A stretch of 64,000 bases of DNA from Basidiobolus meristosporus CBS 931.73. Its lineage: Eukaryota; Basidiobolomycota; Basidiobolomycetes; Basidiobolales; Basidiobolaceae. This document shows positions 6,957 to 64,000 of the stretch, piece after piece. The notes beneath the pieces were generated by a model. The model ran no database searches, had not been told where the DNA came from, and saw nothing but the letters and a program-made list of their open reading frames with translations. Numbering within the stretch: position 1 is the first letter of the stretch; each line of letters begins with the position of its first letter. Position numbers and translations under genes: made by a program. The stretch covers positions 104,835 to 168,834 of the forward strand of contig MCFE01000108.1 in the NCBI GenBank assembly GCA_002104905.1, given 5' to 3'.

Positions 6957-8683
6957 TGTTGCAATACTCTGAGGAGTATTGGTAGTGATGTGGAGAACTA
7001 GAGGCTTCACATGATATTCACTTATGGATTTATTGAGCACAAATATTGTGTTTATGGTTTTAATAGAATATACTAGAAGATACATCAAATCTGTTAAGGA
7101 GGCTCCCAAGAATACATGTGCAAGGTTGGGGTTCTCTTAGACAACTTTGGGAAAGGTCATAATCCAGGTACCAGATAACTTGGTGAAAGTATTCTATGCA
7201 AATCCTGGCAAGAAATTTGGTCAGGACAGAATGCTAATCACTGAATAAGACTTCAGTGACTAATTGGTATGGATATATAGGTGACAGACTAATAAATACT
7301 ACAATTTGGACTATTTATGGAAATTTCATGATATTGGTACTTAATATGTTGGTAAGAATACTCAACTATCTGCCATCAAGGAATTTGATCAGATTCTCCA
7401 ATATTTGTAGGTAATGAAGTGACTAAGTTAGGTGATTTTTTATGCTCAATTACAAATGTTAGTATGATCTCAATTAACCAAATACCCATATTGACTAATC
7501 GTAATCTTGATCCAAGGTATTCAAATTGTATCTAGCTAATGATATGGCTAATATATCTGCAAGCATCTCATTTGCAGGATAGTAGACCAAGTTGACTAAG
7601 TCTTTCTATACAGCTTCTCATAGGAAATGAAATACTTTATATATGTGCAGAGCTCTAGTATGCAAAGCTCACTTTCTACCAATTTGCTTGCATCCTTAAT
7701 ATCATGATATAAAGTAGCCAGAGCATCTTGCCATACCCCCAAGTCTTTAAACAGCTTTCATAACCTCATTGCTTCTTTTTTAGCCTCTTAGACTGCCATA
7801 TACTCTGTCTGACAGGTGGTAAATACCAGAGTTGACTACTCTCTTGAGTTCCATGATATTGCATCTTTACAATGCCTAGAGAAAAAGAATAACAAATGGA
7901 CAGAACAAAATCTTGATATTTTCAGTTGAATTTCAAGTTTCTCAATCCTTACAGCTCTCAATAACTCAAGTACTAGCATTTGAGAAGACAAACAGACATA
8001 TTCTCAAGGAAGAATTTAGCAAAACTAGCCTTTGTGCATGACTTGGCAATTAGCCAACCATTAATTCAATCAAAATCAGCAATTGAATATTTGAACAAGA
8101 AGAATCAGCTGAATACCAACAGAATATCACCAGAATACAAGCTGAAAATCACATTTTTCTCATGCTTGAGATTTTTCATAGTGAGTAAACCAGAGTGTAT
8201 CCTGTGGTGGAACTTTTATTTTTAGATTACATCACAAATCAGCAGCAAAGTATTCCACAAGAAAATGTTTTGAGACCTCTTTGGCAATCATTAAGCAGAT
8301 ATTAGCAGTTCCATTTTAATATCTGAGACTCTGCTTAACAGCTGCAATATCATTAGATCCATAGCTACAATTATGCTGACTGACAACTTATGCTCAATAT
8401 GAGATATTTAAGTGTGTTCCAAGTGTGGCTCACATTGATCTGCTGAATGTAGATTGGAGGGGACTATGGGCATTCAGATGGCACTAAACTCTCTTGATTT
8501 GGTAGAATTTTGAGCAAGCTGAGGCTTGTCTCCACTTGGGTAGCTGCTAGCTTAGATTCCTCCATTTAGCACTTCTGATATATATCTTAAATAAGCATAG
8601 ACTGGGATAGGGTATTTATCTAGGTACTTCTGGCTCTGGAGATCCGTATCCCAAAGTAATGAGTATCTTACAAGTCTTGATAC
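6957..8683 (-). mobile_element. Older Ty1/copia copy (LTR plus 3' coding part), truncated
   Basis: An LTR-like segment at 6,957-7,463 starts TGTTG and aligns throughout with the LTRs of the neighbouring copia, with extra sequence in the middle. From 7,464 to 8,683 the sequence parallels the RNase H and late RT part of that element (compare 7,480-7,620 with 9,040-9,200, and 8,460-8,660 with 9,700-9,910), but is full of stops. A roughly 310-bp segment at 7,882-8,193 with no counterpart interrupts it. The copy ends abruptly where the younger copia LTR begins at 8,684, and its remaining half does not reappear on the other side. Confidence 0.75.
7882..8193. repeat. Short dispersed repeat inserted in the older copia
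   Basis: This segment is absent from the equivalent place in the younger copia, where the sequence jumps directly to ATCCTGTGGTGGA. Related sequence occurs at about 36,940-37,150, 37,715-37,920 and 46,735-46,965. Shared words include CTCAATA.CTCA.GTACTAGC, GCTGAATACCA(A/G)CA and a terminal TTGAGA.TTTTCATAG. It encodes nothing, so it is most likely a MITE- or SINE-like non-autonomous element. Confidence 0.6.
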
Positions 8684-9621: not shown

Positions 9622-10529
9622 CTAATTATGCTGGCTAACAACTCTCACGGGATATGAGATATCTGGACATGTTCCAAGCATAATATACATCACACTGCTG
9701 ATCCTAGATTGATAGGGAAAGTCAGTGCTTTCAGATGGCACCAAGCTCTCTTGATTTAGTTGAGTTTTGACCAAGTTAAGGTTTGTCTCCATTGGGGTAG
9801 CAGCTAGTTTACAGTCTTCTATTTGGTACTTCTTTAGTATATCTTGAATATACTTGGATTGGCTTAGGGTAATAGTCTGGGTACATCTGTCTATGGGGAA
9901 CTTAATCCCTAAGTAGTAACTGAGTTCTCCTAGATTGGACATCTTGAACACATTATATAGGCTGTATTTAGCCTCTTCCAATGTTACTAGGTTATTGGTG
10001 GCTATAATAAGATCATCCACATATAGAGCAAATAGAACTGGATTTGCTCTATCTGGCATATAATATATACTATGGTCAGCATTACTTCTTTTGAAACTTA
10101 AAGATTCAAATAAGAATATATCTTGCAATTCCAGGCTCTTGGTGATTGTTTGAGACCATATAGTGACTTTTTAAGCTTGCAGCCCCAATGGGAGTTATCT
10201 TGGTCAACAAGTCCATCAGGCTGGTCCATATACATGTCCTCATCAAGTTCTTTGTTTAAAAATGCAGTTTTTACATCCATTTGATGAATAAATGACTTGT
10301 ATTTGGCTGCAATAGCCAATATTAATCTGATGGAATTAAACTTGGCTACCAGTGCAAAGGTCTCAGTATATGTAAGTTCTTTTGTTTGAGAGTATCCATT
10401 GGCCACAAGTCTTGCTTTGTATCTTTCAACTTTACCATCAGCCTTGTATCTTGTCTTGAAGACCCATCTGCATCCAATTAATTTTTGGTTTATTGGTAAT
10501 TTGACCAAGTCCCAAGTTTGATTTTTCAT
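9622..10529 (-). pseudogene. Copia reverse transcriptase, two frames
   Basis: The first frame (10,529-10,098) carries the copia RT opening: KLIGCRWVFKTRYKADG, YKARLVANGYSQ, the motif A region QMDVKTAFLNKELDEDMYM and KKSLYGLKQSPRAW. The second frame (10,128-9,622) carries the catalytic YVDDLI motif and continues to YLGIKF and the start of RNase H. One frameshift at about 10,100-10,130 separates them. RNase H-like sequence runs on in damaged form to about 9,040. Confidence 0.92.
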
Positions 10530-11193
10530 CAGGGCCTAATGTTCCTCAGCCATTGCAGATCTCCAAAACTTTGTCTGAGGGCTATTTAGGGCCTCTTTTA
10601 CGGTCTGGGGTTAATCAATATGGACTGAATAGGCATAGGCTAAGTTTGTACCCTCATTGATATAATAATCTGGGCTATTTCTTGTCCAATTGGATATCCT
10701 GGCATTTGATACTGGAATGATCACTTTTGAAATATTCCTGGGCACTGATTCTGGCTGAACCATGGCTTTAGAGTCTGCAGGAGTGAAAGAACCTTCATTG
10801 TTTTGCTCCAAGTCAATCCTGACAATTGGTGGACTTGAAATCAGATTTTTGTCATCATCTGATATCATTTTTTGTGAAAATTCTAAATTTTCATCATACA
10901 ACACATCCCTGCATGCATTTTACCCTTTTTGGTTCAAATTTTGACTTATTTCTGGGCAGTTTCTTGCCATATGCTGTACACCTGAATATTCTTAGATGTT
11001 CTGCACTTAGTCTGTATCTATACCATACTTCAAATGGAGTAGAACCACAAAGTATTCTGATATAACTCCTACTTTTAAGATATACAGCAGTGGCAACTGA
11101 TTCTGCCCAAAAATCATAGGATAATATTTGATCATGGATCAGATATCATGCCATATCAATTATTGATCTGTTAGCACATTCTGCTACTCCAGT

Positions 11194-11949
11194 TTACTGA
11201 GCTTCTTCCTTTCTCTCCATGAAGTAGACCCATGTGTATCTTGTATAATAATCAATAAGTGTGACTAAAAACTTCATCCTGCCTAAGGATAAATTTTGCA
11301 TAAGTTCATACAGATCTGAGTGAATTAGATCTAATTTTTTCTTGGTTTTGATCAGCCCAGAGCTCTTGAACGGTTGTCTGGCTTGTTTCCCATATATGCA
11401 GGCTTCACAGTGCTCCAAATTAGCTGGAGGACCAATTTTTACTCTAGAAATTAGCTGATCTTTGCTCATCTTGCACAAATAATCAAAATTGATGTGCCCA
11501 AATCTCCTGTGCCAAAGCATTGGTGTTTCTTCATTTAAGTTACTTTTATTGGCTTCCAGATATGATGGAATATAAGTCAGCTTGTATAGATTCTGATCTC
11601 TGATACCCAAAGCAATATGGGCACCATTTTGATCAGTGCTCTTGCATCCAGAATTGTCAAAGCTGAAACTGAGTCCTTCTGCAGTGGCCTTGCTTACAGA
11701 TAGTAGGTTCTTGGCTATTTCAGGTACATAGAGTACTTCTTTAAAGGTCAGTGTATGGCTTCCTTCACTGCTCTGAAGGTTTACTTGGATAGTTCCTTTT
11801 CCCACTTCATCAAGTGATCTATCATCACCCATGAAAACCTTATTAATTGGAATTTCTTGATATTGAGTAAAAAGCTCTTTTTGGTGTGTAAAGTGTTGAG
11901 ATGCTCCAGAATTAATGTACCACATCTGAGAATCCCTATTTGTGGTCAT
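11194..11949 (-). pseudogene. Copia protease and integrase N-terminal half
   Basis: 251 codons are open. The protease motif reads WYINSGASQH where copia proteases have DSGAS, so the catalytic Asp is Asn. The GAG-pre-integrase zinc-binding segment follows (LWHRRFGHINFDYL ... CEAC), then the start of the integrase core (DLIHSDLYELM, VTLIDYYTRYTWVYF). The frame stops inside the core. The remaining integrase (11,190 to about 10,610) continues only in broken pieces. Confidence 0.88.
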
Positions 11950-12012
11950 ATTTAGTGCAGATATGAATAGTCTATCATCAGTTGTTGCAGCATTTCCATA
12001 TTCAGGCTTCTT

Positions 12013-12779
12013 TTACTGATTATCTCTGTTTTTGAGACACCAGTCTGATGTGTGTCCTTTCCTTTTGCAATAGTTGCAAAACAGGTTTCTGTTGCCTTTG
12101 CAGGGTCTTGGGTACCTCCTTTGTTGGTTATCATTGCTTATTAAAGCATTTTCTTCTTCCTTCTTATGGGCGCTTGATTTTCTTAATTCTTTATCCAAGA
12201 GCCTTCCATATACATAATTTAAGGTCAAATCTTCAGTTCTGGACTCTAAAGCTGATACAAGGCCCTGAAACCTGTCTGTCAGACTGTTTATGATGGTAAC
12301 TATCACTTCCTCATCAGTAGTTGGTATGCCCACAGATTTCATTTCATCTACCAGCAGAGTAATTCTGCTAATTAGATTTTTCATTTCTTCTCCTGGCTGC
12401 ATCTTTCTAGTAAATAATTTTTGTCTCAGATACATTTTCTTAGCAGCTGAGCATGACTGGTAGGTGTCTTCTAATGCCTTGCAGCATTCTTTGCCTTTTT
12501 TGCTTTTGAGCATTGAATTAGCAATTTGTCTTCAACATTAAGGTAAATGCAGTTAAAGGCACTTTGTTCTTTCTTCCAGTACTTCAAGGCTTCCTCTCCC
12601 ACGTTTTTAGGAGGGCATTCTTCTCCCATGAAAATATCCCAAAGGCCTCTTTCTTGTAGCAGCATCTTCATCTTCACCCTCCGCACCTGGTAGTTAGATC
12701 CATCCAACTTTTCAGCAGAGGGAAAAATTCCAGTAATAGCAGTAGTAGACATTGCAGAGAGTGACAGCTCAGAGCTCAT
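12013..12779 (-). pseudogene. Copia gag, frameshifted
   Basis: The start codon at 12,779 gives MSSELSLSAM, followed by the copia gag opening (KLDGSNY). A frame change near 12,480-12,510 leads into the UBN2-type capsid segment (EDTYQS, MKNLISRI, VTIINSLTDRFQ). It ends in a CCHC zinc knuckle, CNYCKRKGHTSDWC, at about 12,070-12,030. The zinc knuckle would bind element RNA. The frameshift makes the protein non-functional. Confidence 0.85.
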
Positions 12780-12783
12780 AACC

Positions 12784-13132
12784 TGTTGTAAGAGTCTTGC
12801 AGATATTAGAAGTGACTGGGAGGATAAGTAGATTATGTGGTTTTCACTTAGTGATTTATTGAATGTAAAAGTAATACTTATACTTTTACATGGTCTTGGC
12901 ATAACAAAGATGTAGAATAGATTAAGAAAGATCCCAAGAACATGTGTGCAAGGTTTGGGGCTTTTTGGACAACTCTGAGAATTTTCATGTTCTGGGTACC
13001 TGGTATTTTGGTGAAAATATTCTAAGTATATCCCATAAAGGAATTTGGTCAGTATTCCCTAGGATTTGAAGGTAATTATCTAAGTGACTAAGTTAGGGGA
13101 ATATTTAGGTGGAAATACAAATTTTAACAATG
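12784..13132 (-). repeat. Copia 5' LTR
   Basis: It aligns along its whole length with 8,684-9,032. The far terminus has diverged (ACAATG in place of ACAACA), so the exact end is uncertain by a few bases. I cannot call a convincing target-site duplication. Confidence 0.85.
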
Positions 13133-39125: not shown

Positions 39126-39469
39126 CATTGAGTACTCACACATTTCACACTCTTCAATCAAGTGTAGGTCCACTTGGTCTCTCCTGCTCACTTTGGCACT
39201 CTTTGGCATTTGTGGATTGATATGACACTATCCAGCAGAGCCAGTCTATTAGCTAATATGAACATGCAATAAAGCACTGGAAGCTGTCAGGGCATTTAGA
39301 CTTGTGCAATAGACCCCAATATTTGCATATCATGCTCTATACCTTTCTTGAGGTAACTATAATATTGGCCTACAGTAGTATAAATAAACCTGGGTACTCA
39401 ATATTGATACAATTAAGTATCAGAAACTTACTGTAGTTCTCTAACTGAATTTCAATACTTCCTAGAATC

Positions 39470-40084
39470 CAGCAGTACAGACCATCCACCAGTATCTGCA
39501 GAAGAATAATCTCCAGCTTTCCCTTGCAAAGACAGTATCTGTGGGTTCTCCTATCAACCTGGAGCACTCTACTCTACCTGCTCAAGTCTCTGCTACATAT
39601 CTTGGCTTTCCTTTCCTTGCCACTGGACTAGACTCAGGAGCACACTTGAAGACAAGAGTCATCCTGACAAGACAGGCTCTCCACAAGCTACTGGCTGTTA
39701 CTCCTCCTACAACTTTAGCTCCCAGCTGCCTTCTTCTACTCAGGTGGTTTGTCTTTCCTGTCATGGAATTTGGCTTACCACTTCTCTCTCTTGCTTCTAG
39801 AGACTGGATTAAACTTGACAGGTTTGCAGTCCAGTGCATTACCTCCCTGGTCCCTCATCTGCCTGAATGCCTCTACAAACATGCAATTTCTGGTGCTTTT
39901 GGGTTTATGCCCTATAAGATCAGACTTCTCTACCTTAGAACCAAAATTTACCTCAAACTTCAGTACTGTAACAATTTATCAGTCAAGGCCTAGAAGAGCA
40001 CTTACTACACTATCCCTGGCTCCTGCGGCAGTACCATACTTGGAGATTCAGATTTAAAAAGCTTGCTATTTATGTCATGCAGTC
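39470..40084 (+). pseudogene. Internal fragment of the non-LTR retrotransposon RT
   Basis: The frame at 39,541-39,993 matches the RT end and post-RT region of the intact element at 61,629-63,974 (ATYLGFPF, GLDSGAHLK, LVPHLPEC, GAFGFMPYKIRLLYLRTK). Similarity starts at about 39,470 and stops near 40,084. A TAG replaces a Trp codon after 39,990. The fragment lacks the element's 3' tail, telomere-like repeats and the core RT motifs, so it is not a simple 5'-truncated insertion. It was probably placed by rearrangement or cut by later deletion. Confidence 0.88.
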
Positions 40085-54604: not shown

Positions 54605-57600
54605 ATGGGCTACTCCTCCTACTCGTCTTCATACTTCCAACCAATTCCTGAAAATTCCAACCCAAACGTGAAGAAGCGCAGTTTCGACATGATTCCGCAA
54701 GTCTCCTCGATCCCTGTTTATCATCGCCACAACTCTCACAACGATCCCCTATTGTCCTCGGAATCCAACTGGATAACCGAGCTAAGCAGCGGCGATCTGT
54801 CCTATTCCGAGCCTGCTACCCCTAGCCTCATGAACTCCGGCAGTTTGTGGACGTACGGCTCCGATGTCCCAACACCATTGCAAGAGATGAAGCTGGAAGG
54901 CTTTGAGCCCACGTTGGACATGGCATCGTTAGTCCCTGGCACACTTCCCAAACAGGAAAGCTTCGGGCTCGTCTTTCCATTTGATGATTTTGAGTGCAGA
55001 GCTGGATCGTTCGATGACCATAGCAACATGCACCTGCAATCACATTCTCTGATTCGCTCACATCCCTCCACATCTCCAAGTGAGTGTTCTCAATCATTTT
55101 CGTCGATTCATGACTCGTCACTTGCCATGCACGATGGCATGCTATCGAATGCCATGGACCAGCGGCAATTGAGAAACATCCAGTTCAACCGTGTGCGGAT
55201 GGCGTCGGAGAATCACTCCGAGTTCAGCAGTTCTATGACCAGCCCCGTGGACTCCGGTTTCTGCACTCCTATCGATAGCTACACATCAAGCCCTGTTCTT
55301 CACCATTCAACCGTAAATACAAGAAGCTATTTCCCTTCGGAATACATTGACACCCATCGACGCCCTAGCATCTCTACCGGCCTCCAGTCGCTCCACATGG
55401 CAGACGAGATGTCCTTAAACTCTGCACTTTCCATGACACAAGCATCATCATCATTGTCTGCCCCACTTTCCATCAACTCTTTCCTAGATGCAAACCATGA
55501 TATACCTGGTGCACTGCTGCATTCCTCCGATCCTCTGGGTGTGGTTAATGGCCACTTCTATAATAACAAGCTTCATTTAGACCAACATTCGGCCTTCATG
55601 AATCCGACGCACGAAGATATTATGAGTGGAGGCGGTGGGCACAATTCAACTTACGGGTTCCATGACGGCGCCCCTCCACCCCCCACATTGTCGCCACCTT
55701 CCTCGCCAAACACTGAAAATAGATGCACTCCTGTCTCACCTGCCAACGGCTTAAATTATTCTCTGGGAAACAAGATCGAACTGAGTCAAAACACTCACCT
55801 ATCACTGAAGCCTCTCGTTCATAGCTACGTGTCACCGACCACCAACCCACTCCTCAATGGGGAGAAGACTGTTGTTATTCTGACGTCTAAAGTCGCCCAG
55901 AAGTCATACGGCACTGAGAAAAGATTTCTATGCCCTCCTCCTACTGTCCTGCTTCTGGGTCAAAATTGGCGTGTTAACACCTTCCCCAAAAGCGGATCTC
56001 CCAATGAGGGTTCCACTTTGGTAAGCCCAAAGCTTACCATCGGCATCCCTGGAGAGTCTGGGCAGCAGCAAGGGGTGTTGGAGTGGTCCGGACCATCTAG
56101 TCCCACCGTCGATTCCAATGCACCAGAATCAACCTCTGTCGGGAGGTGTGTGGCCAAGCATCTGTTCATCAATGACGCTGATGAGAAGCGCAAACGGGTG
56201 GAAGTGATGGTGAACGTCCAGTCTTCCTCAGGCCAACCGGTGGGTACTTTCGTCTCCAAGCCTATCAAAGTGATTTCCAAGCCTTCCAAAAAGCGGCAGA
56301 GCGTCAAAAATATGGAGCTCTGCATACACCATGGCACGACCATTTCTCTTTTCAATCGGATCCGATCGCAAACCGTATCCACCAAATATCTTGGGGTTTC
56401 CTCTCCATCCGCATCCACGTTTGGCAATGCCAAGTGGCCAGCCAACATGAATCACATTGGGTCTCCGAGTGATTCAGCTTGCTTTGTTGCTAGGACTGGG
56501 CGCTGGGACCCGTTTGTTATATGGCTGGTGGACTTGAACAAGAGAAACCTGCCGCCTTCCGAACAGACATCAACCCTTCCTCCTCCTGGCTTCCCGGCTC
56601 CTCCAACCATTGCCGTGCAACCTCAGGAATATGCGATGTCCTTTTCACCTGGCTCCGATTCGAGAGTTAACTCTGATGGCAAATCTCCAATCCCCATCCA
56701 TTACAACCAGCCCGTTGTGCTGCAGTGCCTTTCAACAGGTTTGATCAGCCCGGTAATGATCATCCGTAAGGTTGACAAAGGTAGTCTCGTGGTTGGGACT
56801 GGAACTGGAACAGGCCGTGAGGAGATGCTTGGAGACCCAGTTTCGCAGTTGCACAAAGTCGCGTTTCAAATCGTGGAGGACATGGTAGAGGAAGAGACCC
56901 CGTTCCCAATTCGGCCTACAGCTGGCTCGTATCTTGTTTGCTTGGGCGACGTTGTTGGTGTGCAGCGCTCGAACGAGGGTCGCAAATTTGACACACCGTC
57001 CGCCAAAAAGGTACCATCCCGTTCTGAATCCCTACCCAATGTCTTGGAGCATTCTTACGAAAACTTGCCTAATGGGACCGCTGCCAATGAGGGTGATAAT
57101 GGCACACGCAAAAGACGTGCGCCCACGTCCGCTGCTAGTGGGCCACCCATGAAAGCCTCCAAGGCTGGTAGAAGGAATTCTATTAGAGAAGACCTTCTGT
57201 CAGGTAATGACTCTGCCCTGCAGAACATGTGGTCTGAGGATGTGTCAGACACAGCCGTTTGGACAATCGTTGGTACTGATTGTGTGCAATACTCATTCTA
57301 CACGCCCAACTCCAACACGCACGGTGATGAATCCAGTATAAATCCCATTACTCCCATTCCTTATATCACACACATTATTCCTTCTACACAAAGTGGCGGA
57401 TCCAGCATCCTCAGCATTTACGGTGAAAACCTTACTGCTGATCTTTCGGTTTGGTTTGGGGAGACGCAGAGCAAAGTCACCGAATTCAAAAGCCGGGAAA
57501 GTATAGTTTGTGCCCCACCCGCCCCTGGACAAAACGGAGCCGCAGAAGAAACCTCATTCCCAATCTTGCTGGTCAGAAGCGACGGAGTTGTATTTAAAAC

Positions 57601-57622
57601 CGGTAAATTCTACACGGTTTAA
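54605..57622 (+). CDS. CSL-family (CBF1/Su(H)/LAG-1) transcription factor
   Basis: A single exon of 1,005 residues from ATG 54,605 (MGYSSYSSSY). The first 410 residues are Ser/Pro/His-rich and look disordered, as in long fungal CSL proteins. The Rel-homology N-terminal DNA-binding domain starts near residue 420 (EKTVVILTSKVAQKSYGTEK, RFLCPPPTV). The beta-trefoil domain follows from about 567 (MELCIHHGTTISLFNRIRSQ, TKYLGV) and includes CFVARTGRWDPFVI, VVLQCLSTGLISPVMIIRKV and AFQIVEDM, ending near WTIVGTDCVQYSFYTP (about 883-898). A C-terminal IPT/TIG domain (about 915-1005) contains SILSIYGENLTADLSVWFG. CSL proteins bind GTG(A/G)GAA-type sites. Fungal members such as S. pombe Cbf11 and Cbf12 regulate cell adhesion, cell cycle and lipid metabolism, without Notch. 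All three structural domains are intact. Confidence 0.95.
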   Translation: MGYSSYSSSYFQPIPENSNPNVKKRSFDMIPQVSSIPVYHRHNSHNDPLLSSESNWITELSSGDLSYSEPATPSLMNSGSLWTYGSDVPTPLQEMKLEGFEPTLDMASLVPGTLPKQESFGLVFPFDDFECRAGSFDDHSNMHLQSHSLIRSHPSTSPSECSQSFSSIHDSSLAMHDGMLSNAMDQRQLRNIQFNRVRMASENHSEFSSSMTSPVDSGFCTPIDSYTSSPVLHHSTVNTRSYFPSEYIDTHRRPSISTGLQSLHMADEMSLNSALSMTQASSSLSAPLSINSFLDANHDIPGALLHSSDPLGVVNGHFYNNKLHLDQHSAFMNPTHEDIMSGGGGHNSTYGFHDGAPPPPTLSPPSSPNTENRCTPVSPANGLNYSLGNKIELSQNTHLSLKPLVHSYVSPTTNPLLNGEKTVVILTSKVAQKSYGTEKRFLCPPPTVLLLGQNWRVNTFPKSGSPNEGSTLVSPKLTIGIPGESGQQQGVLEWSGPSSPTVDSNAPESTSVGRCVAKHLFINDADEKRKRVEVMVNVQSSSGQPVGTFVSKPIKVISKPSKKRQSVKNMELCIHHGTTISLFNRIRSQTVSTKYLGVSSPSASTFGNAKWPANMNHIGSPSDSACFVARTGRWDPFVIWLVDLNKRNLPPSEQTSTLPPPGFPAPPTIAVQPQEYAMSFSPGSDSRVNSDGKSPIPIHYNQPVVLQCLSTGLISPVMIIRKVDKGSLVVGTGTGTGREEMLGDPVSQLHKVAFQIVEDMVEEETPFPIRPTAGSYLVCLGDVVGVQRSNEGRKFDTPSAKKVPSRSESLPNVLEHSYENLPNGTAANEGDNGTRKRRAPTSAASGPPMKASKAGRRNSIREDLLSGNDSALQNMWSEDVSDTAVWTIVGTDCVQYSFYTPNSNTHGDESSINPITPIPYITHIIPSTQSGGSSILSIYGENLTADLSVWFGETQSKVTEFKSRESIVCAPPAPGQNGAAEETSFPILLVRSDGVVFKTGKFYTV

Positions 57623-60017
57623 TCCTTTCACCGTGCAGTAAGCTAGTAGACCTTGATGTGCAGTTTCGGCATTCCATCACATCACTCCTACTTGATATCA
57701 GCCTTTGTAATTTCTTGATGCATTTACCATCTTCCTTGAAGCAAGGATTTCAGTACAGTATTTTGATTCATCGACTTTGTTTTAATATTTTTGTATAAAA
57801 TCCTCATTTCCTCCAGCTCACTATAAACATCAACTTTACCAACCCTTCCAAACATCCTTTCAATGCCATATAAAGAATGTCCATTTAGAGTATATTTTGT
57901 AAACCGGGGGCGCATCTGGCAATGTAAACAGAGGGCCTGATGCCATCTATCATGTACGTACGGTCTACCGCGTGATGTTCCATAGACCCTCATATCGTTT
58001 GTCGTGAACTAGCGTTTAGAGAAGGATAAGGCAGAAGATTGGCTCAACTAAAGCTTCAGTCAGGTGGGGTCCTGAAGAGTGGCTGACCCAACAGGGCTAA
58101 TAAAGCCTAATGCTAACAAGTCAACGAAAGTCGTGTAACCATGTATCATTTCTCTGTCAACTATTCGCAGGCCAGCATTTACTAGGCCTAATGAGAGGAA
58201 GTGTGAATCAGGGGTTTGGGCTTGATCGAACTGACAACGAAGGTGTGATAGCTCTTGGGCCAATGATAGGCATCTATACGGTTCCCCTGAATACCCCAAG
58301 GTAGTTGATTGGTGTTGGTTTACATTCATTAAGCCAAATTCTTACCAGCAGCTAACTAATCCTCTATTTGCTATTTACTAGCGGTTCATCAAGAGTAGAT
58401 GAAATATACGCAAATCATCCTGCGACCATTCAGAAATTGGCCAGCAAAATGCATTTCTATAGGCGTGTGATAATAGATGTTACCAATACCTACCAAAGAT
58501 ACGTTAGTGCAGCTATTGTTGCTAACCCATCCACCCAAATGATGATTCTTGGCATGAGTCGTATGCCAGCTTTAGTGACTGCGCCAAATCGTTCTGGGCC
58601 ATTATTGAGAATTCGATCTATACCAGTTCTCTATAGTTCACGCATTTGAGTATCTCTACTTGCAATGGTTCATTCGATCCGGGATCGAATGCGTGGATAG
58701 CATCAAGCATGCTGTACACTTGACTAGAAATGGAGTAATGAAAGTATCCCTGATGCCAAAATCCTTGGACCTCGTGTACATCCAAGGTTTCGCCGAAGCG
58801 CCATAGTGAATGCATATTGGCTCAATACGTGCGCTTGAAACATTCCATCAATCAAGATTCTTGATACATAATTCGTAGTAGCGGTGTAATGTTCAGCCAT
58901 TCCCGGAAAAAATGGTAATAGCAGCTGGAGGCTTTGATACTTTCGGAATGCGTCAACATTAATTTTGCTGTGGCTTAATTCTCCTGAAGTACCAACACCA
59001 ATAAGTGTCATAGGGAATCCCTTCAAATGCCATGTTTTCGCATTCAGCAATAATAGGGTGTTCAGTCATGAAAATGATTATAGAGGATTGTGGGGGACAG
59101 TGGCCAATTGGTGAAGAGAAGCGTAGCTCTGGAGATCAATCACTGCGAATCCAGTTGACAATAATCTAAATTGAGTGATCAACATGTGGGGTAACTGGTC
59201 CCGAAATTCAATCAGATGCTGCTCATAAGGGTTAACATTCTTCCATATCGCCTTAAATCCCCAACAGACAAATCGAAGTTTTACTACTTGGCCATACTAA
59301 GCTCATCCACAAACGCTGACGCAACTGTGACGTTAGCAAAATATCAAATTCCCCATTATAACGATACGCATATATCACGAGGTATTTCACAAATCCTCCT
59401 GATACCTAATGTAGAAGGTTGCTTTCTGCACACCCGTCATTAGTCGTCTCACACTTGGTGAATCTAAGTGGCTGATGCTCTCGTTATCCTCGTACTGGTT
59501 AATTCTGAAATTGCTTGGCTATTTTCGGTGATGAATCTGAGACCATTCTTAGTGTGTAGAAAAATAATCACCCGTGGAGCTTTAGCAATTAGTGGCAATA
59601 ATAATGTATACATATGTGGATTGTTGGATCAAGTACTGATGTGCATTGACAGAAATTAGATTTTTGTTTTACTGTACTCTATTCAAGTCCCACTTACAAT
59701 GATTTCATCTGTTCATAGTTTGTTCAGTACTTTGTTTAAATGTATTTACTGCTGTTTCTGGTCTATTTCATTAAAATAATTGGTTACGCTCACATATACA
59801 TGCTTATTTCGAAGTAGAGCACAAATTCAGGTCATATCCATCATTGAGTTAGAATTAAAAGTTGCTATTGGCATAGCATTCAGAATTAAATTAATTTAAA
59901 AAATCTAAATAATACAAAGATATATTTAACTCAACACTTTGTTACTCATAACCTTTACTGCAAGTATAGGTGCTCACTCTTAGACTTTTCTGATGATAGC
60001 ACATAAAATACATAGGG
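57623..60017. other. CSL 3' flank and transition to repeats
   Basis: No firm gene. Weak frames include 58,368-58,649 (plus) and 58,724-59,050 (minus, 108 codons, YVSRILIDGMFQAHVLSQYA). CpG density falls from about 59,500, and the sequence becomes AT-rich up to the first telomere-like unit at 60,015. Confidence 0.45.
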
Positions 60018-60101
60018 TTGGGGGAGGAAAGTGACCAAGTGGTGAAGTCTTTATTTACTTATGACAAGCATCTAAAGAAGCCAAGTTAATCTGAAGTTAA
60101 T

Positions 60102-60220
60102 CCTAGAAAGCTAGGCCTGATAGATATCTTCCTGGTAAGCCAGGTCTGAGAGTTGAGAAGCTGAGTTGTACTATATTTCCTAGTTAGCTAGGTCTGAGAG
60201 AGGTTTCCTGGAAAGCCAGG
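60102..60220 (-). repeat. Four short hairpins in the SINE body, copy A
   Basis: Hairpins lie at 60,102-60,115, 60,131-60,144, 60,179-60,192 and 60,207-60,220. Each has a 5-bp stem and 4-nt loop and is followed by a CTGA-type spacer. The plus-strand stems alternate CCTAG/CTAGG, CCTGG/CCAGG, CCTAG/CTAGG, CCTGG/CCAGG, so both sides of the pair change together. Confidence 0.8.
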
Positions 60221-60474
60221 CCTGAGAAGTGAGAATCTGAATATATCTGAGGGGAGTTGTGCTGGTTTGCGGAAGCTGATTTTTGGTTTAAATGGCCAGC
60301 AGACTGGTGGAACTGAGGACACCTTTTAGGCAATCACCAGCCAAGTTTACCAGGCAAATCTAACCAATTAGCATTTCAAGGATTTCAGCCAATCAGAGAA
60401 TTTACTTTGCCTGATGGTTGATCAGGCCATCTCTCAATGAGCACACATCAATTTATTAATCAAATTTTGTTGGA

Positions 60475-60540
60475 TCCAGGATTTGAACCCACAACCATGG
60501 GTATGGAAGGGTTAGGGATAACCACAAGGCTAAGTGTTCT
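60475..60540 (-). promoter_or_regulatory. tRNA-like head with A and B boxes, copy A
   Basis: The minus strand has GGTTCAAATCC (60,479-60,489), a full match to the Pol III B box. Upstream of it is TAGCCTTGTGG (60,522-60,532), close to the A box. The spacing of about 32 nt is tRNA-like. A CCCTAACCC lies between them (60,509-60,517). The cloverleaf is incomplete, so this is a derived promoter head, not a tRNA gene. Confidence 0.55.
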
Positions 60541-60545
60541 TGGTT

Positions 60546-61066
60546 AGGGGGAGGAAAGTCACCAAGTGGTGAAATCTTTATTTACTTATGACAAGTATCT
60601 AAAGAAGCCAGCTAATCTGAAGTTATTCCTAGAAAGCTAAGTCTGAGAGATATCTTCCTGGTAAGCCAGGTCTGAGAGTTGAGAAGCTGAGTGGTACTAT
60701 ATTTCCTAGTTAGCTAGGTCTGAGAGTGGTTTCCTGGAAAGCCAGGCCTGAGAAGTGAGAATCTGAATATATCTGAGCTAAGTTATACTGGTTTGCGGTA
60801 GCTGAATTGTGGCCGGAATGGCCAGTAGACTGGGGGAACTGAGATGTATTTCTGGGCAATCACTGGCCAAATTTACTAGGCAAATCTGGCCAAGTAGCAT
60901 TTCAAGGATCTCAGCCAATCAGAGCCTTTACTTTGCCCGATGGTTGATCAAGTCATCTCCCAATGAGCACACATCAATTTATTAATCAAATTTTGCTGGA
61001 TCCAGGATTTGAACCCACAACCATGGGTATGGAAGGGTTAGGGATAACCACAAGGCTAAATGTTAT
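60546..61066 (-). mobile_element. SINE-like element, copy B (full length)
   Basis: Aligns end to end with copy A. It has the B box at 61,005-61,015, A box at 61,048-61,058, internal CCCTAACCC at 61,035-61,043, hairpins, and tail stem-loop at 60,559-60,572. The 3' end abuts TTAGGGGG (plus strand) and the 5' end abuts GGTTGGGTTAGGGG. The first hairpin has one broken pair. Confidence 0.78.
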
Positions 61067-61072
61067 TGGTTG

Positions 61073-61098
61073 GGTTAGGGGAGGGAGGGTTAGGGGGA
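61073..61098 (+). other. Telomere-like G-rich junction with quadruplex motif
   Basis: Four or more GGG tracts lie within 26 nt: GGGTTAGGGG, AGGGAGGG, TTAGGGGG. It separates SINE copy B from the truncated LINE tail. Confidence 0.75.
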
Positions 61099-61222
61099 GA
61101 CAGTCACCAACAGGTGAAATCTTTATTTCAGTTGAAACAAAGAAGCCAGCGCTACTGTTGTAGCTTTGATACAAGAGTGTGTAGCTGAGGGGAATTTGTA
61201 GGTAAGTTAATAAGAAGTGATG
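61096..61222 (-). mobile_element. 5'-truncated LINE copy (tail only)
   Basis: About 125 bp identical or nearly so to the 3' end of the large element (61,572-61,700), covering the last codons of its ORF, the 3' untranslated region and the TCACC-AACA-GGTGA stem-loop (61,104-61,117). Its truncated 5' end joins three TTAGGG units directly, as expected from incomplete reverse transcription into telomere repeats. Confidence 0.85.
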
Positions 61223-61245
61223 GGTTAGGGTTAGGGTTAGGGGGG
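61222..61245 (+). repeat. Telomere-type repeat (GGGTTA)3
   Basis: Three perfect GGGTTA units followed by a G run, between the LINE tail and SINE copy C. The plus strand carries the G-rich sequence. Confidence 0.88.
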
Positions 61246-61558
61246 AGGAAAGTCACCAAGTGGTGAAATCTTTATTTACTTATGACAAGTATCTAAAGAA
61301 GCCAAGTTAATCTGAAGTTATTCCTAGAAAGCTAGGTCTGAGAGATATCTTCCTGGTAAGCCAGGTCTGAGAGTTGAGAGGCTGAGTTGTACTATATTTC
61401 CTAGTTAGCTAGGTCTGAGAGAGGTTTCCTGGAAAGCCAGGCCTGAGAAGTGAGAATCTGAATATATCTGAGCTAAGTTATACTGGTTTGCGGTAGCTGA
61501 ATTGTGGCCGGAATGGCCAGTAGACTGGGGGAACTGAGATATATTTCTGGGTGATCAC
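61246..61558 (-). mobile_element. SINE-like element, copy C (5'-truncated)
   Basis: Has the tail stem-loop (61,253-61,266) and all four hairpins (61,323-61,336, 61,352-61,365, 61,400-61,413, 61,428-61,441), all perfectly paired. It stops in the body before the tRNA-like head and joins TTAGGGTTTAGGG at 61,559. Confidence 0.8.
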
Positions 61559-61574
61559 TTAGGGTTTAGGGGGG
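61559..61574 (+). repeat. Telomere-like junction at the LINE 3' end
   Basis: TTAGGGTTTAGGGGGG joins the truncated SINE copy C to the 3' end of the large LINE. The extra T is a common degenerate telomere variant. Confidence 0.75.
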
Positions 61575-64000
61575 AGACAGTCACCAACAGGTGAAATCTT
61601 TATTTCAGTTGAAACAAAGAAGCCAGCGCTACTGTTGTAGCTTTGATACAAGAGTGTGTAGCTGAGGGGAATTTGTAGGTAAGTTAATAAGAAGTGATGA
61701 TAGTTCTTCAGTGCTCAAGACACTGTTCAGTGGGAAGGGGGGTAGCAAGAGAGGTAAGAATGACTTGTGAACAACATCAATGAGGGGAATGTGATAAGGA
61801 TTGATATTCATCATAAAGGGAGTGTGCTGCTGCAGATATTGCTGCCAAAGGTCTGTCAAGTACTTCATGTAGGCCAGCTTGGGTTTTTCTGACTGCAGAA
61901 TATAGTGTGCAAACTTCTTGACTTCAGGATCTCCAAGTATAGTTCTCCAGCAGGAGCCAGGTGTTGTGTGGTGTGTTCTCTTCCAGGCCTTAATCAGTGG
62001 GTTGCTGCAGTTGTGAAGTCTGAGGTATAATCTGGTTCTAAGGTAGAGAAGTCTGATCTTATAGGGCATAAACCCAAAAGCACCAAGAATAGCATGTCTG
62101 TAGGGGCATTCAGGCAAATGAGGCACCAAGGAGGTAATGCACCATACTGCAAACTTGTCAAGCTTAGTGCAGTCACTAGAAGTAAGAGAGAGAAGTGGTA
62201 AGCCAAATTCCAGGACAGGGAAGACAAACTGCTTGAGTAGAAGGAGGCAGCTGGGAGCTGAAGTTGTAGGAGGAGTAACAGCCAGTAGCTTGTGGAGTGC
62301 CTGTCTTGCCAGGATAATTCTCTTCTTCAGGTGTGCTCCAGAGTCTAGTCCAGTAGGAAGGAAAGGAAAGCCAAGATATGTAGCAGAAACCTGAGCAGGT
62401 AGAGTGGAGTTCTCCAAGTTGATGGGAGAGCCCAAAGGTACTGTCTTTGCAATGGAAAGCTGGAGATTATTCTTCTGCAGATACTGGTGGATGGTCTGGG
62501 AGTCTTGTTGCACATTGGAGGAGGATATTCTGATGTCATCAGCAAAGAGAGTAACCAGGCAGTCAGCTGAGAGTCTTGGGAAATCATTCAGGAAGATGGC
62601 AAACAGTATAGGACCAAGCACAGAGCCTTGAACCACTCCATTAGGAACTGAGAACACAGCTGATTGCTCACTTGGGTGCAGAATTCTTGCTTGTGGATCC
62701 AGAAACAGAGACCTGACAAGGAGGGTGAGAGAGGTACTGGAGAAGCATTGCAACTTGGACCAAAGCAGATTTCTGTCAACTGAATCAAAGGCCTTAGTAA
62801 TATCAAACAGAACTGAGGGATACTTGCACTGGAGAGAGTGATCTTGGCTAAGTATGACTGCATATTCCAAGGAGAGGCCAGGAACAAAGCCAAACTGTGC
62901 AGGATGAAACTTGAGGGAGTCAGAGTAGAGCTCCTGAGCAAGCAGAAGCTCAAACACCTTTCTGCAGGTGGGCAGCAGAGATATTGGCCTGTAGGAGCTA
63001 GGATCCAGGTGCTTTCCTTTACCCTTGTACAGTGGCAGAACATTTGCAAAGGACCATTCCTCAGGAGTAGAAAGCTGGGCTGAGCATTGTTGAAACAGTG
63101 GAAGCAGAAGTGCAGACATGGCCTTGGTACTAGTCTTCAGAAGCTCATAAGAGATTGTGTCCACACCTGGAGCAGTAGAGTTGGGAAGCCTCTTGAGCAC
63201 ATTATGGATTCTCCTTTGATCAAGTGCAAGTGGGATGGGCAGAGTCTTGAAGTCAGGATGAAAGCCAGGAGTTGAGTACTGCTTTGTAGAGAAGAAGATG
63301 TTAGCCAGCTGTTCTGTTGAAGGTAACTTCCTGGAAGAGGGCCTCATTGCCCTGTAGAGTCTCGATACTGTTCTTGTTATAGAGTTGGAAGATTGCAGAG
63401 GCAAAGAACTCATAATATGATCCCAGAGCTGAGTATGCAGAGTGTGGTGAATTGCCTTGGAGTGATGTATTGCTGTCAGGAGGAGTTTCTCTGTTTTTGG
63501 GTTAGGGAAACTCAGGTAGCTTTGTTGCAGGGCTGAAACAATGGATTCCCATTTTCTTGAGGTAACAGCAGTAGTCTTGCATGGCAGTGAGAGGGAGGCA
63601 GACACCAGAATCAGATGCTTCACAAAGAGCCAGGCATAGTTGAGATCATCTGGCAGAGAAAGTAGCAAACTGGCAAGCTTCAAGTAGTTCCCAAAGTCTT
63701 TCTTCTGATTCTTGGTAGCTTTGTGGGTGAGCACAGTAAGCTTTGGCAGCTTCTTCTTCACAACTGGTTGCATAGAAAGGGACCAGGCTGGGTGGTCAGA
63801 GGCTCTCAAGGATCCTAGCTCAGCTCCAGAGAATTGCCTAACTTCATTCACAAAGTAGAGGGCAGCAGCAGAAGGGCAGATCCAGTCAACACATCTTTTC
63901 TCAGATTGAGCACCTAGTGCTAGCAGATGGCTTTCTCTCAGGAAGTTCAGTAGGAATGTAGACCTTGGCTTCATTTTTGCAGTCAGAGTAGTCTTGTTCT
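61572..64000 (-). mobile_element. Telomere-associated non-LTR retrotransposon, runs off the window
   Basis: The element's 3' end is at about 61,572 and its 5' part lies beyond the right edge. It has a very short 3' untranslated region of about 57 nt, containing an AATAAA-like word and a TCACC-AACA-GGTGA stem-loop (61,581-61,594), then a CCCCCCTAAACCC end. There is no poly(A) tail. The orientation is the same as all neighbouring copies. Confidence 0.9.
61629..64000 (-). CDS. APE-type endonuclease/reverse transcriptase ORF (5' partial)
   Basis: The frame is open from the stop at 61,629 to the right edge with no stop. The first ATG inside is at 63,974, but the frame continues upstream (NKTTLTA), so the true start is probably outside. 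Counting from that ATG, the end of an APE-like endonuclease is at 29-65 (CVDWICPS, then SLRASDHPAW with the terminal SDH motif). The RT domain is at about 250-560: APGVDTISYELL, YRPISLLPTCRKVFE, motif A LFDITKAFDSVD (Asp391), VPNGVVQGSVLGP and the catalytic FADD (477-480), then the thumb region ATYLGFPF. The last 200 residues are a helical region without a CCHC knuckle I can see. All catalytic RT motifs are intact over 781 codons, which implies recent activity. Confidence 0.93.
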   Translation of the reverse strand, partial: NKTTLTAKMKPRSTFLLNFLRESHLLALGAQSEKRCVDWICPSAAALYFVNEVRQFSGAELGSLRASDHPAWSLSMQPVVKKKLPKLTVLTHKATKNQKKDFGNYLKLASLLLSLPDDLNYAWLFVKHLILVSASLSLPCKTTAVTSRKWESIVSALQQSYLSFPNPKTEKLLLTAIHHSKAIHHTLHTQLWDHIMSSLPLQSSNSITRTVSRLYRAMRPSSRKLPSTEQLANIFFSTKQYSTPGFHPDFKTLPIPLALDQRRIHNVLKRLPNSTAPGVDTISYELLKTSTKAMSALLLPLFQQCSAQLSTPEEWSFANVLPLYKGKGKHLDPSSYRPISLLPTCRKVFELLLAQELYSDSLKFHPAQFGFVPGLSLEYAVILSQDHSLQCKYPSVLFDITKAFDSVDRNLLWSKLQCFSSTSLTLLVRSLFLDPQARILHPSEQSAVFSVPNGVVQGSVLGPILFAIFLNDFPRLSADCLVTLFADDIRISSSNVQQDSQTIHQYLQKNNLQLSIAKTVPLGSPINLENSTLPAQVSATYLGFPFLPTGLDSGAHLKKRIILARQALHKLLAVTPPTTSAPSCLLLLKQFVFPVLEFGLPLLSLTSSDCTKLDKFAVWCITSLVPHLPECPYRHAILGAFGFMPYKIRLLYLRTRLYLRLHNCSNPLIKAWKRTHHTTPGSCWRTILGDPEVKKFAHYILQSEKPKLAYMKYLTDLWQQYLQQHTPFMMNINPYHIPLIDVVHKSFLPLLLPPFPLNSVLSTEELSSLLINLPTNSPQLHTLVSKLQQ

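Follow-up and report, generated by a model that had tools for sequence, protein, structure and literature searches.

A probable telomere-directed LINE, with SINE and ORF1-only passengers, in a chromosome-end array of the fungus Basidiobolus meristosporus

At its right-hand end, contig MCFE01000108.1 (C91) of Basidiobolus meristosporus CBS 931.73 carries a compact array of non-long terminal repeat (non-LTR) retrotransposons interleaved with telomere-like DNA, namely a long interspersed nuclear element (LINE), here termed LINE-A, and a short interspersed nuclear element (SINE). The window analyzed is the 64,000-nucleotide (nt) stretch C91:104835-168834, the right edge of which is the end of the 168,834-base contig, and genome-wide searches covered the assembly of 89.0 Mb in 1,311 contigs. 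Five units share one orientation, on the minus strand, with their 3' tails pointing inwards, where they abut TTAGGG-type DNA as judged by reading the sequence. On that strand, and starting from the right, the order is LINE, CCCCCCTAAACCCTAA, a 5'-truncated SINE, CCCCCCTAACCCTAACCCTAACCC, a ~125-nt LINE tail and, beyond a telomere-like joint, two full SINEs, and the right end of the window is best read as the inner edge of an array at a Basidiobolus (Basidiobolomycota) chromosome end.

Ordinary DNA begins at 60,014, inward of the last SINE. SINE copy 1 (60015..60541, minus strand) is full length, with its 5' end to the right and its 3' end adjoining ATAGGGTT at the left, and its relatives across the genome are 89-95% identical over the aligned parts; GGTTAGGGGGAGG links it to the likewise full-length copy 2 (60542..61072, minus strand). 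There follow a telomere-like joint on the plus strand (61073..61096) with two TTAGGG units (61075-61080 and 61090-61095), a 5'-truncated LINE 3' tail of about 125 nt (61097..61221, minus strand; truncation joint GTGATG/GGTTAGGG), a plus-strand joint (61222..61243) with three consecutive TTAGGG units (61225-61242), the 5'-truncated SINE (61244..61558, minus strand; unit C91:166073) and the plus-strand telomere joint TTAGGGTTTAGGG (61559..61573). LINE-A itself occupies 61574..64000 on the minus strand, its 3' end at the left and its 5' part lost at the contig end. Its second open reading frame (ORF2; 61629..63998, minus strand) stays open to the contig end and encodes the end of a putative apurinic/apyrimidinic (APE)-type endonuclease, with an SDH motif, followed by a reverse transcriptase (RT; RVT_1, E 2.1e-25). 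The 3' tail (61574..61629, minus strand) combines a AAATAAAGATTTCACC-loop-GGTGA hairpin with a C-run. Within the window (TTAGGG)2 is matched solely at 61225-61242, where two matches are reached in 0 of 100 shuffles, and no further tail was found outside 60559-61581 at up to 4 edits. An earlier note, made from the letters of this stretch, had described five same-orientation units and their junctions, and all are present, displaced by a few bases at most from the places it gave; its claim that every unit is joined to TTAGGG-type DNA holds for the joints between units and fails in the strict sense for the innermost one near 60,015, which reads ACATAGGGTTGGGGGAGG and lacks an exact TTAGGG.

The SINE, about 527 nt long, harbors no ORF of at least 100 amino acids (aa) in 60015-61072. 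Both copies score 16 of 18 consensus positions for A and B boxes at tRNA-like position and spacing, the A box lying 9-14 nt into the tested piece as counted from its 5' end, with 43 nt to the B box; in copy 1 the A box-like TAGCCTTGTGGT lies at 60521..60532 and the B box GGTTCAAATCC at 60479..60489, starting 43 nt past the A box (both on the minus strand, from the joint A+B scoring). A score of 16 is reached by 0 of 300 dinucleotide shuffles of copy 2 (shuffle maximum 15), and the promoter is thus of RNA polymerase III (pol III) type by sequence, with transcription predicted. The designation "tRNA-headed" in the earlier note is borne out as far as these boxes go and not beyond them: Rfam reports no RNA family, hence no tRNA, in 59900-62000 at E≤1, and ARAGORN finds no tRNA in the window, its relaxed runs yielding implausible low-score matches only. 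Derivation of the head from a tRNA is nonetheless likely. The element is therefore short, non-coding, equipped with a predicted internal pol III promoter and provided with a 3' tail common to its partner LINE, as befits a SINE, with a recognizable tRNA head as the trait it lacks. Within its head, CCCTAACCC (window 60509-60519) recalls the telomere-like terminal run of MoTeR1.

More complete copies elsewhere in the genome present the LINE-A architecture as ORF1 followed by ORF2, the latter with APE motifs (GDLN...SDH) and RT. In ORF1, a CPNC...CKC stretch resembles a zinc ribbon, another part resembles a coiled coil, and the C-terminal half is common to two further families, B and C. Pfam matches to ORF1 are all below cut-off, as are those to the ORF2 endonuclease: in ORF2 of copy L010 an N-terminal Exo_endo_phos_2 match (E 0.001) scores 19.4 bits against its cut-off of 27.4, an Exo_endo_phos match reaches 16.7 bits, also below cut-off, and apart from these and RVT_1 no Pfam match appears at E≤1. 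The GDLN/GDFN and SDH motifs are nearly invariant across the ORF2 alignment, other LINE-A copies combine the upstream GDLN motif with a weak PF14529 match, the relative P0006 carries PF14529 as a precomputed annotation, and the B. meristosporus gene model P0005 is 63-69% similar to the LINE. Taken as motifs, these features point to an endonuclease of APE type; a restriction enzyme-like (REL) endonuclease is not supported in L010 ORF2 by Pfam, the C-terminal REL motif not having been searched by hand. Only L1 ORF2p and the RT of a group II intron match this RT in the Protein Data Bank, and they are uninformative on clade. ORF1 and ORF2 share one frame, split by UGA then CUA (L019, L045, L052, L061, L066, L072); no AUG precedes the GDLN motif in the copies read, and the inter-ORF stop is retained in all 100 listed of 131 pattern matches, which suggests that ORF2 would be made by stop readthrough or reinitiation. 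Immediately upstream of ORF1, CCCTAACCCTAA at L052:1439-1450 may be a telomere joint or belong to the 5' end.

Five families (LINE-A, the SINE, B, C and LINE-D) share the AAATAAAGATTTCACC-loop-GGTGA...C-run together with an upstream GGCTTyTTT. Similarity of the SINE to the other families at E≤0.01 is confined to this 3' end, and its tail matches LINE-D better (97% over 32 nt) than the window LINE-A (88% over 43 nt). Over 413 aa, LINE-D (C748) and LINE-A ORF2 are 46% identical; the LINE-D copy seen is broken. Among family B and C units longer than 600 nt, nine with the B tail and six with the C tail match LINE-A ORF1, mostly at 29-36% over 113-163 aa. Unbroken units have 95-130 nt between the end of this ORF (271-298 aa at its longest, stop to stop) and their 3' end, which leaves no room for an RT after it; frames are broken or shifted in C581, C679, C1245 and C473, and the B-tail unit C2:257460 contains a Gypsy-like stretch in place of the ORF1-like protein. 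Diverged LINE proteins at L015, L020, L035, L044 and L045, in the same subtelomeric stretches, are 34-53% identical to LINE-A over 61-493 aa and may represent additional LINE families at these ends.

Genome-wide, the exact tail core TCACCAANNGGTGAAATCTTTATTT occurs in 1,164 copies (1,082 forward and 82 reverse; reversed-pattern control, 0) and, allowing up to one mismatch, in 1,303 + 127; the LINE body yields 457 matches at up to three mismatches, the SINE body 307, and the B tail 244 at up to one mismatch. Flanks and placement were tallied over the first 100 listed of the 1,164 exact tails, on 35 contigs. The hairpin loop letters of these tails are CA in 58 (LINE-A type), GT in 37 (SINE type), AG in three, CT in one and GA in one. 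An exact TTAGGG lies 6-15 bases upstream in 86, and among the remaining 14, which were read individually, five (L074, L076, L078, L080, L085) are clearly telomeric beyond the range of the pattern; with 91 of 100 flanks clearly telomeric, the majority falls on the side that the earlier note's telomere-directed reading had anticipated. The genome total of the TTAGGG-flanked pattern, 1,098, double-counts some places (9 repeats among 95 listed rows compared). Of the listed tails, 36 are on the 14 contigs longer than 100 kb, and none of the 36 is more than 18,332 bases away from the end that its orientation predicts (chance ~6e-15 with one tail counted per contig); on contigs of 16-20 kb the predicted half holds 56 of 64. 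Location at ends, telomere joints and a single orientation, as expected of a telomere-specific retrotransposon, are thus observed in most of the listed copies. A second sample, of 165 copies on 57 contigs taken from BLAST loci, has a median distance of 2.7 kb to the predicted end; its outliers are two copies that lie ~98 kb inside C558 and two that are nearer the opposite end of the short contigs C343 and C284.

The joints themselves are short and variable. The in-phase telomeric sequence that precedes the G-run was measured at 164 parsed joints: it is 0 to 41 nt long, with a median of 6 nt, and at most 24 nt in 162. The telomere repeats thus do not form a constant component of the element, contrary to the possibility that the earlier note had named as refuting its reading, even if TTA may be RNA-encoded in some joints. 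The G-run measures 4-10 (mode 5) at SINE joints and 3-10 (mode 6) at LINE joints, variation that is expected if GGG pairs with the C-run in different registers, and no poly(A) run separates tail and flank in the junctions listed. On the other side of the joints, 31 on LINE-A bodies fall at 30 distinct positions, SINE joints are at the 5' end in 46 of 60 cases and scattered in 14, and other flanks show 63 distinct ends among 67; with nearly all breakpoints distinct, the events are largely independent. Fifty-one joints were scored as truncated on known bodies, of which a strict rule excluded 27 (break not cleanly telomeric) and kept 24, and an in-frame telomere seed of at least one base is present at 21 of these 24 (chance 2e-10 at p 0.25 and 2e-7 at p 0.35). 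MoTeR truncations, according to passages of PMC7367193, are also seeded, in 17 of 23 cases.

Several arrays can be followed to what appear to be chromosome termini. At 23 places the 5' end of a full-length SINE runs directly into at least four TTAGGG repeats; 14 of these could be assessed for a contig end, and in 11 of them, spread over 10 contigs, 116-240 bases separate the match from the contig end (C21, C52, C77, C83, C110, C424 left and right, C458, C822, C872, C991), the other three continuing into further sequence (C291, C424:311595, C980). Six such ends were read (C21, C991, C822, C872, C458 and C424 left), and after the SINE they consist solely of 140-264 nt of TTAGGG repeats; the 312,558-base C424 begins with CCCTAA repeats and has SINEs at both ends. 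Of 17 further contig ends, 11 close in TTAGGG repeats, C380 closes in one TTAGGG and five lie within element or other DNA, the window's contig among them. The check suggested in the earlier note, whether the assembly to the right ends in (TTAGGG)n, is answered by other contigs that do so after the same elements, C91 itself stopping at the window end. Two Telomerase_RBD matches at C880, of 40.5 and 34.7 bits, indicate a host telomerase gene, whose product may be a working enzyme.

In light of the location, orientation, junctions, truncations, common tail and gene content described above, we consider it highly probable that the chromosome-end array is built by telomere-directed non-LTR retrotransposition, in which an APE-type LINE primes at ends or nicks, telomerase caps the products, and the SINE and ORF1-only families travel as passengers. 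The LINE, with ORF1 followed by an endonuclease-RT protein, would recognize the RNA 3' end through its AAUAAAGAUUUCACC-loop-GGUGA hairpin and C-run. The 3'-OH of a TTAGGG end, either a free G-strand end or an endonuclease nick, would then pair with the C-run and prime reverse transcription, which would place the 3' tail of each copy inwards and its 5' end toward the telomere. The 3' end of the cDNA, complete or stopped early, would become the new chromosome end, to which telomerase would add TTAGGG, often seeded by at least one matching base, whereupon the next copy can land; the pol III-type SINE and the two families with only an ORF1-like product would use the LINE machinery in trans. The orientation, joints, truncations and seeds alike fit reverse transcription that is primed on its target, a TTAGGG 3' end, and followed by telomerase, and telomere-directed insertion as first proposed in the earlier note is supported, with target priming as the inferred route.

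A number of observations weigh against this account. Insertion is deduced from sequence, none having been watched, and an intact-looking APE domain would be unnecessary for pure end priming. The hairpin stem is invariant between families and hence offers no covariation evidence, and the second, 34.7-bit Telomerase_RBD match contains one in-frame TAG, for which an intron is possible. Six of the 100 listed tails have TAGGG-like or variant flanks (L073, L075, L077, L083, L084, L086), three have no telomeric flank (L079, L081, L082), and eight of 64 on contigs of 16-20 kb lie in the wrong half; the unbiased tail list comprises only the first 100 of 1,164, and the BLAST-loci sample is biased toward best-scoring copies. 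In the window a decayed, tail-less LINE-A-like RT fragment lies on the plus strand at 39466-39993, opposite in orientation to the array and ~24 kb from the contig end. The 218-kb contig C558 carries its array ~98 kb inside, with at least one tail lacking a telomeric joint: at C558:94000-102000 (L105-L106) same-orientation, partly decayed units stand beside what appears by eye to be a chromodomain Gypsy-type integrase, several still linked by CCCTAA-like sequence and at least one, with a C-type tail, not; the site may be the fossil of an old end, a fusion or an error of assembly.

How the elements attach is the point at which other explanations come closest. A mechanism like that of SART/TRAS, in which the APE endonuclease nicks inside the telomere tract and insertion occurs between repeats rather than at a free end, has a real but lesser chance of being correct: the LINE does possess an APE-type endonuclease with GDLN and SDH motifs, and SART1 and TRAS1 insert within TTAGG tracts (passages of PMC7265360), but if insertion were uniform along tracts of 140-264 nt, only about 9-18% of joints should keep 24 nt or less of proximal repeat, against the 162 of 164 observed; the objection would fall if nicks were preferred near the proximal edge, or if tracts shrank either before insertion or after it. 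We regard it as unlikely that the TTAGGG at the joints belongs to the element RNA, whose CCCUAA-repeat end would anneal to DNA ends via a few bases in a general healing of broken ends for which telomerase is unneeded. Joint lengths peak at exactly TTA (31 of 164) and TTAGGGTTA (14), and at the minimal joints of TTA plus G-run a CCCUAA-ended RNA could template TTA instead of telomerase, which counts against our preferred account as well; many joints, moreover, lie on broken element bodies. Against this stand the 0-41 nt variation in tract length, joints without TTA, the long terminal tracts capping the last elements and the telomerase RNA-binding domain, and the seed counts, being compatible with both readings, do not discriminate telomerase from RNA-templated TTA.

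If the arrays were ordinary subtelomeric blocks that go back to a few ancient insertions and were spread by break-induced replication or ectopic recombination, near-identical copies would be explained (of the 457 LINE body matches the 100 listed all have 0 mismatches, in a list that is possibly sorted by mismatch), and recombination and break repair are known in MoTeR arrays (passages of PMC7367193); since block copying would not yield the distinct breakpoints seen both on LINE-A and at the other flanks, we deem this reading very improbable. Contig orientation is oddly uniform, with (TTAGGG)3 at 8,002 forward versus 103 reverse matches and telomeres mostly at the right, and probably stems from the assembly procedure. 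This uniformity counts in favour of the array being an assembly artefact, a reading that is scarcely credible given the many differing joints over many contigs, the contig ends in real telomere tracts and the one contig carrying opposite telomere strands near its two ends. Elsewhere in the window lie a LAG1/CSL-type gene (54608-57619), which matches B. ranarum at 79% and B. meristosporus CBS 931.73 at 73%, and, on the minus strand at 9622-13058, ORFs that by eye resemble a Ty1/copia-type retrotransposon.

Telomere-directed retrotransposition of this kind recalls several known systems. The head-to-tail chromosome-end arrays of Drosophila likewise mix RT-bearing and Gag-only elements (HeT-A/TART/TAHRE), HeT-A being the Gag-only one, and families B and C similarly code only for an ORF1/Gag-like protein; we know of no SINE in the Drosophila arrays. 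Pairs with stringent tails, of the eel UnaSINE/UnaL2 type, share a 3' stem-loop between SINE and LINE as the Basidiobolus elements do, but are not known to be telomere-targeted. To our knowledge no telomere-specific SINE has been described before, and the Basidiobolus one would be the first. Drosophila also lacks telomerase and telomeric repeats (passage of PMC7265360), whereas Basidiobolus has TTAGGG and Telomerase_RBD and so would not share the HeT-A-like trait of replacing telomerase.

Among insect elements, passages of PMC7265360 and PMC4700185 present SART1 and TRAS1 as APE-type, two-ORF and telomere-targeted, with a 3' UTR (untranslated region) required for retrotransposition; LINE-A, by its motifs, similarly joins APE endonuclease and RT in ORF2 with a separate ORF1, but SART1 and TRAS1 are poly(A)-ended within TTAGG tracts and the Basidiobolus elements end in C-runs with very short proximal tracts. 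The closest fungal parallel is MoTeR1/MoTeR2 of Magnaporthe/Pyricularia, for which sections of PMC7367193 report telomere arrays with 5' ends toward the chromosome end, in-frame seeded 5' truncations, (TTAGGG)n spacers that range from half a unit to over 20 units, a non-autonomous partner with the same termini, and interstitial relics. MoTeR2, however, shares both MoTeR1 ends, whereas in Basidiobolus a pol III-type SINE and the families limited to ORF1 take the passenger role, and MoTeR1 groups with REL-endonuclease elements (portions of PMC12857005), in contrast to the APE motifs and ORF1 found here. The same portions assign FoTeR (Fusarium) and Cnl1 (Cryptococcus), also fungal, to the REL endonuclease group, describe FoTeR as a telomere element with telomeric motifs at both ends and, in the abstract and two sections, make no mention of a SINE alongside FoTeR or Cnl1. 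Named telomere retrotransposons in the corresponding parts of PMC10088271 comprise SART/TRAS, GilM/GilT, Zepp1, MoTeR1, Tx1-1_ACar, Athena and the Drosophila HTT set; neither "SINE" nor "Basidiobolus" occurs in the portions of that paper or of PMC8381367, and listings and abstract openings of the open-licence literature revealed no telomere-specific SINE or Basidiobolus telomere element.

The fungal telomere LINEs named in the available parts of PMC12857005 (MoTeR1, FoTeR and Cnl1) thus belong to the REL group, and with an APE-type representative in Basidiobolomycota the Basidiobolus telomere LINE is apparently of separate origin. More tentatively, an early-diverging fungus may have independently evolved a Drosophila-like community of chromosome ends, made up of LINEs with an RT, elements that are Gag-only and, as the feature unique to it, a pol III SINE; there, critically short telomeres would be extended by end-primed reverse transcription while telomerase caps the products. 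Such a community, if real, would be a living intermediate between telomerase and retrotransposon telomeres. With more than 1,000 tail copies in one genome, mostly at different joints, Basidiobolus allows attachment at free ends versus nicks to be asked about directly, and the same genome lets the sharing of chromosome ends between telomerase and retrotransposons be studied.

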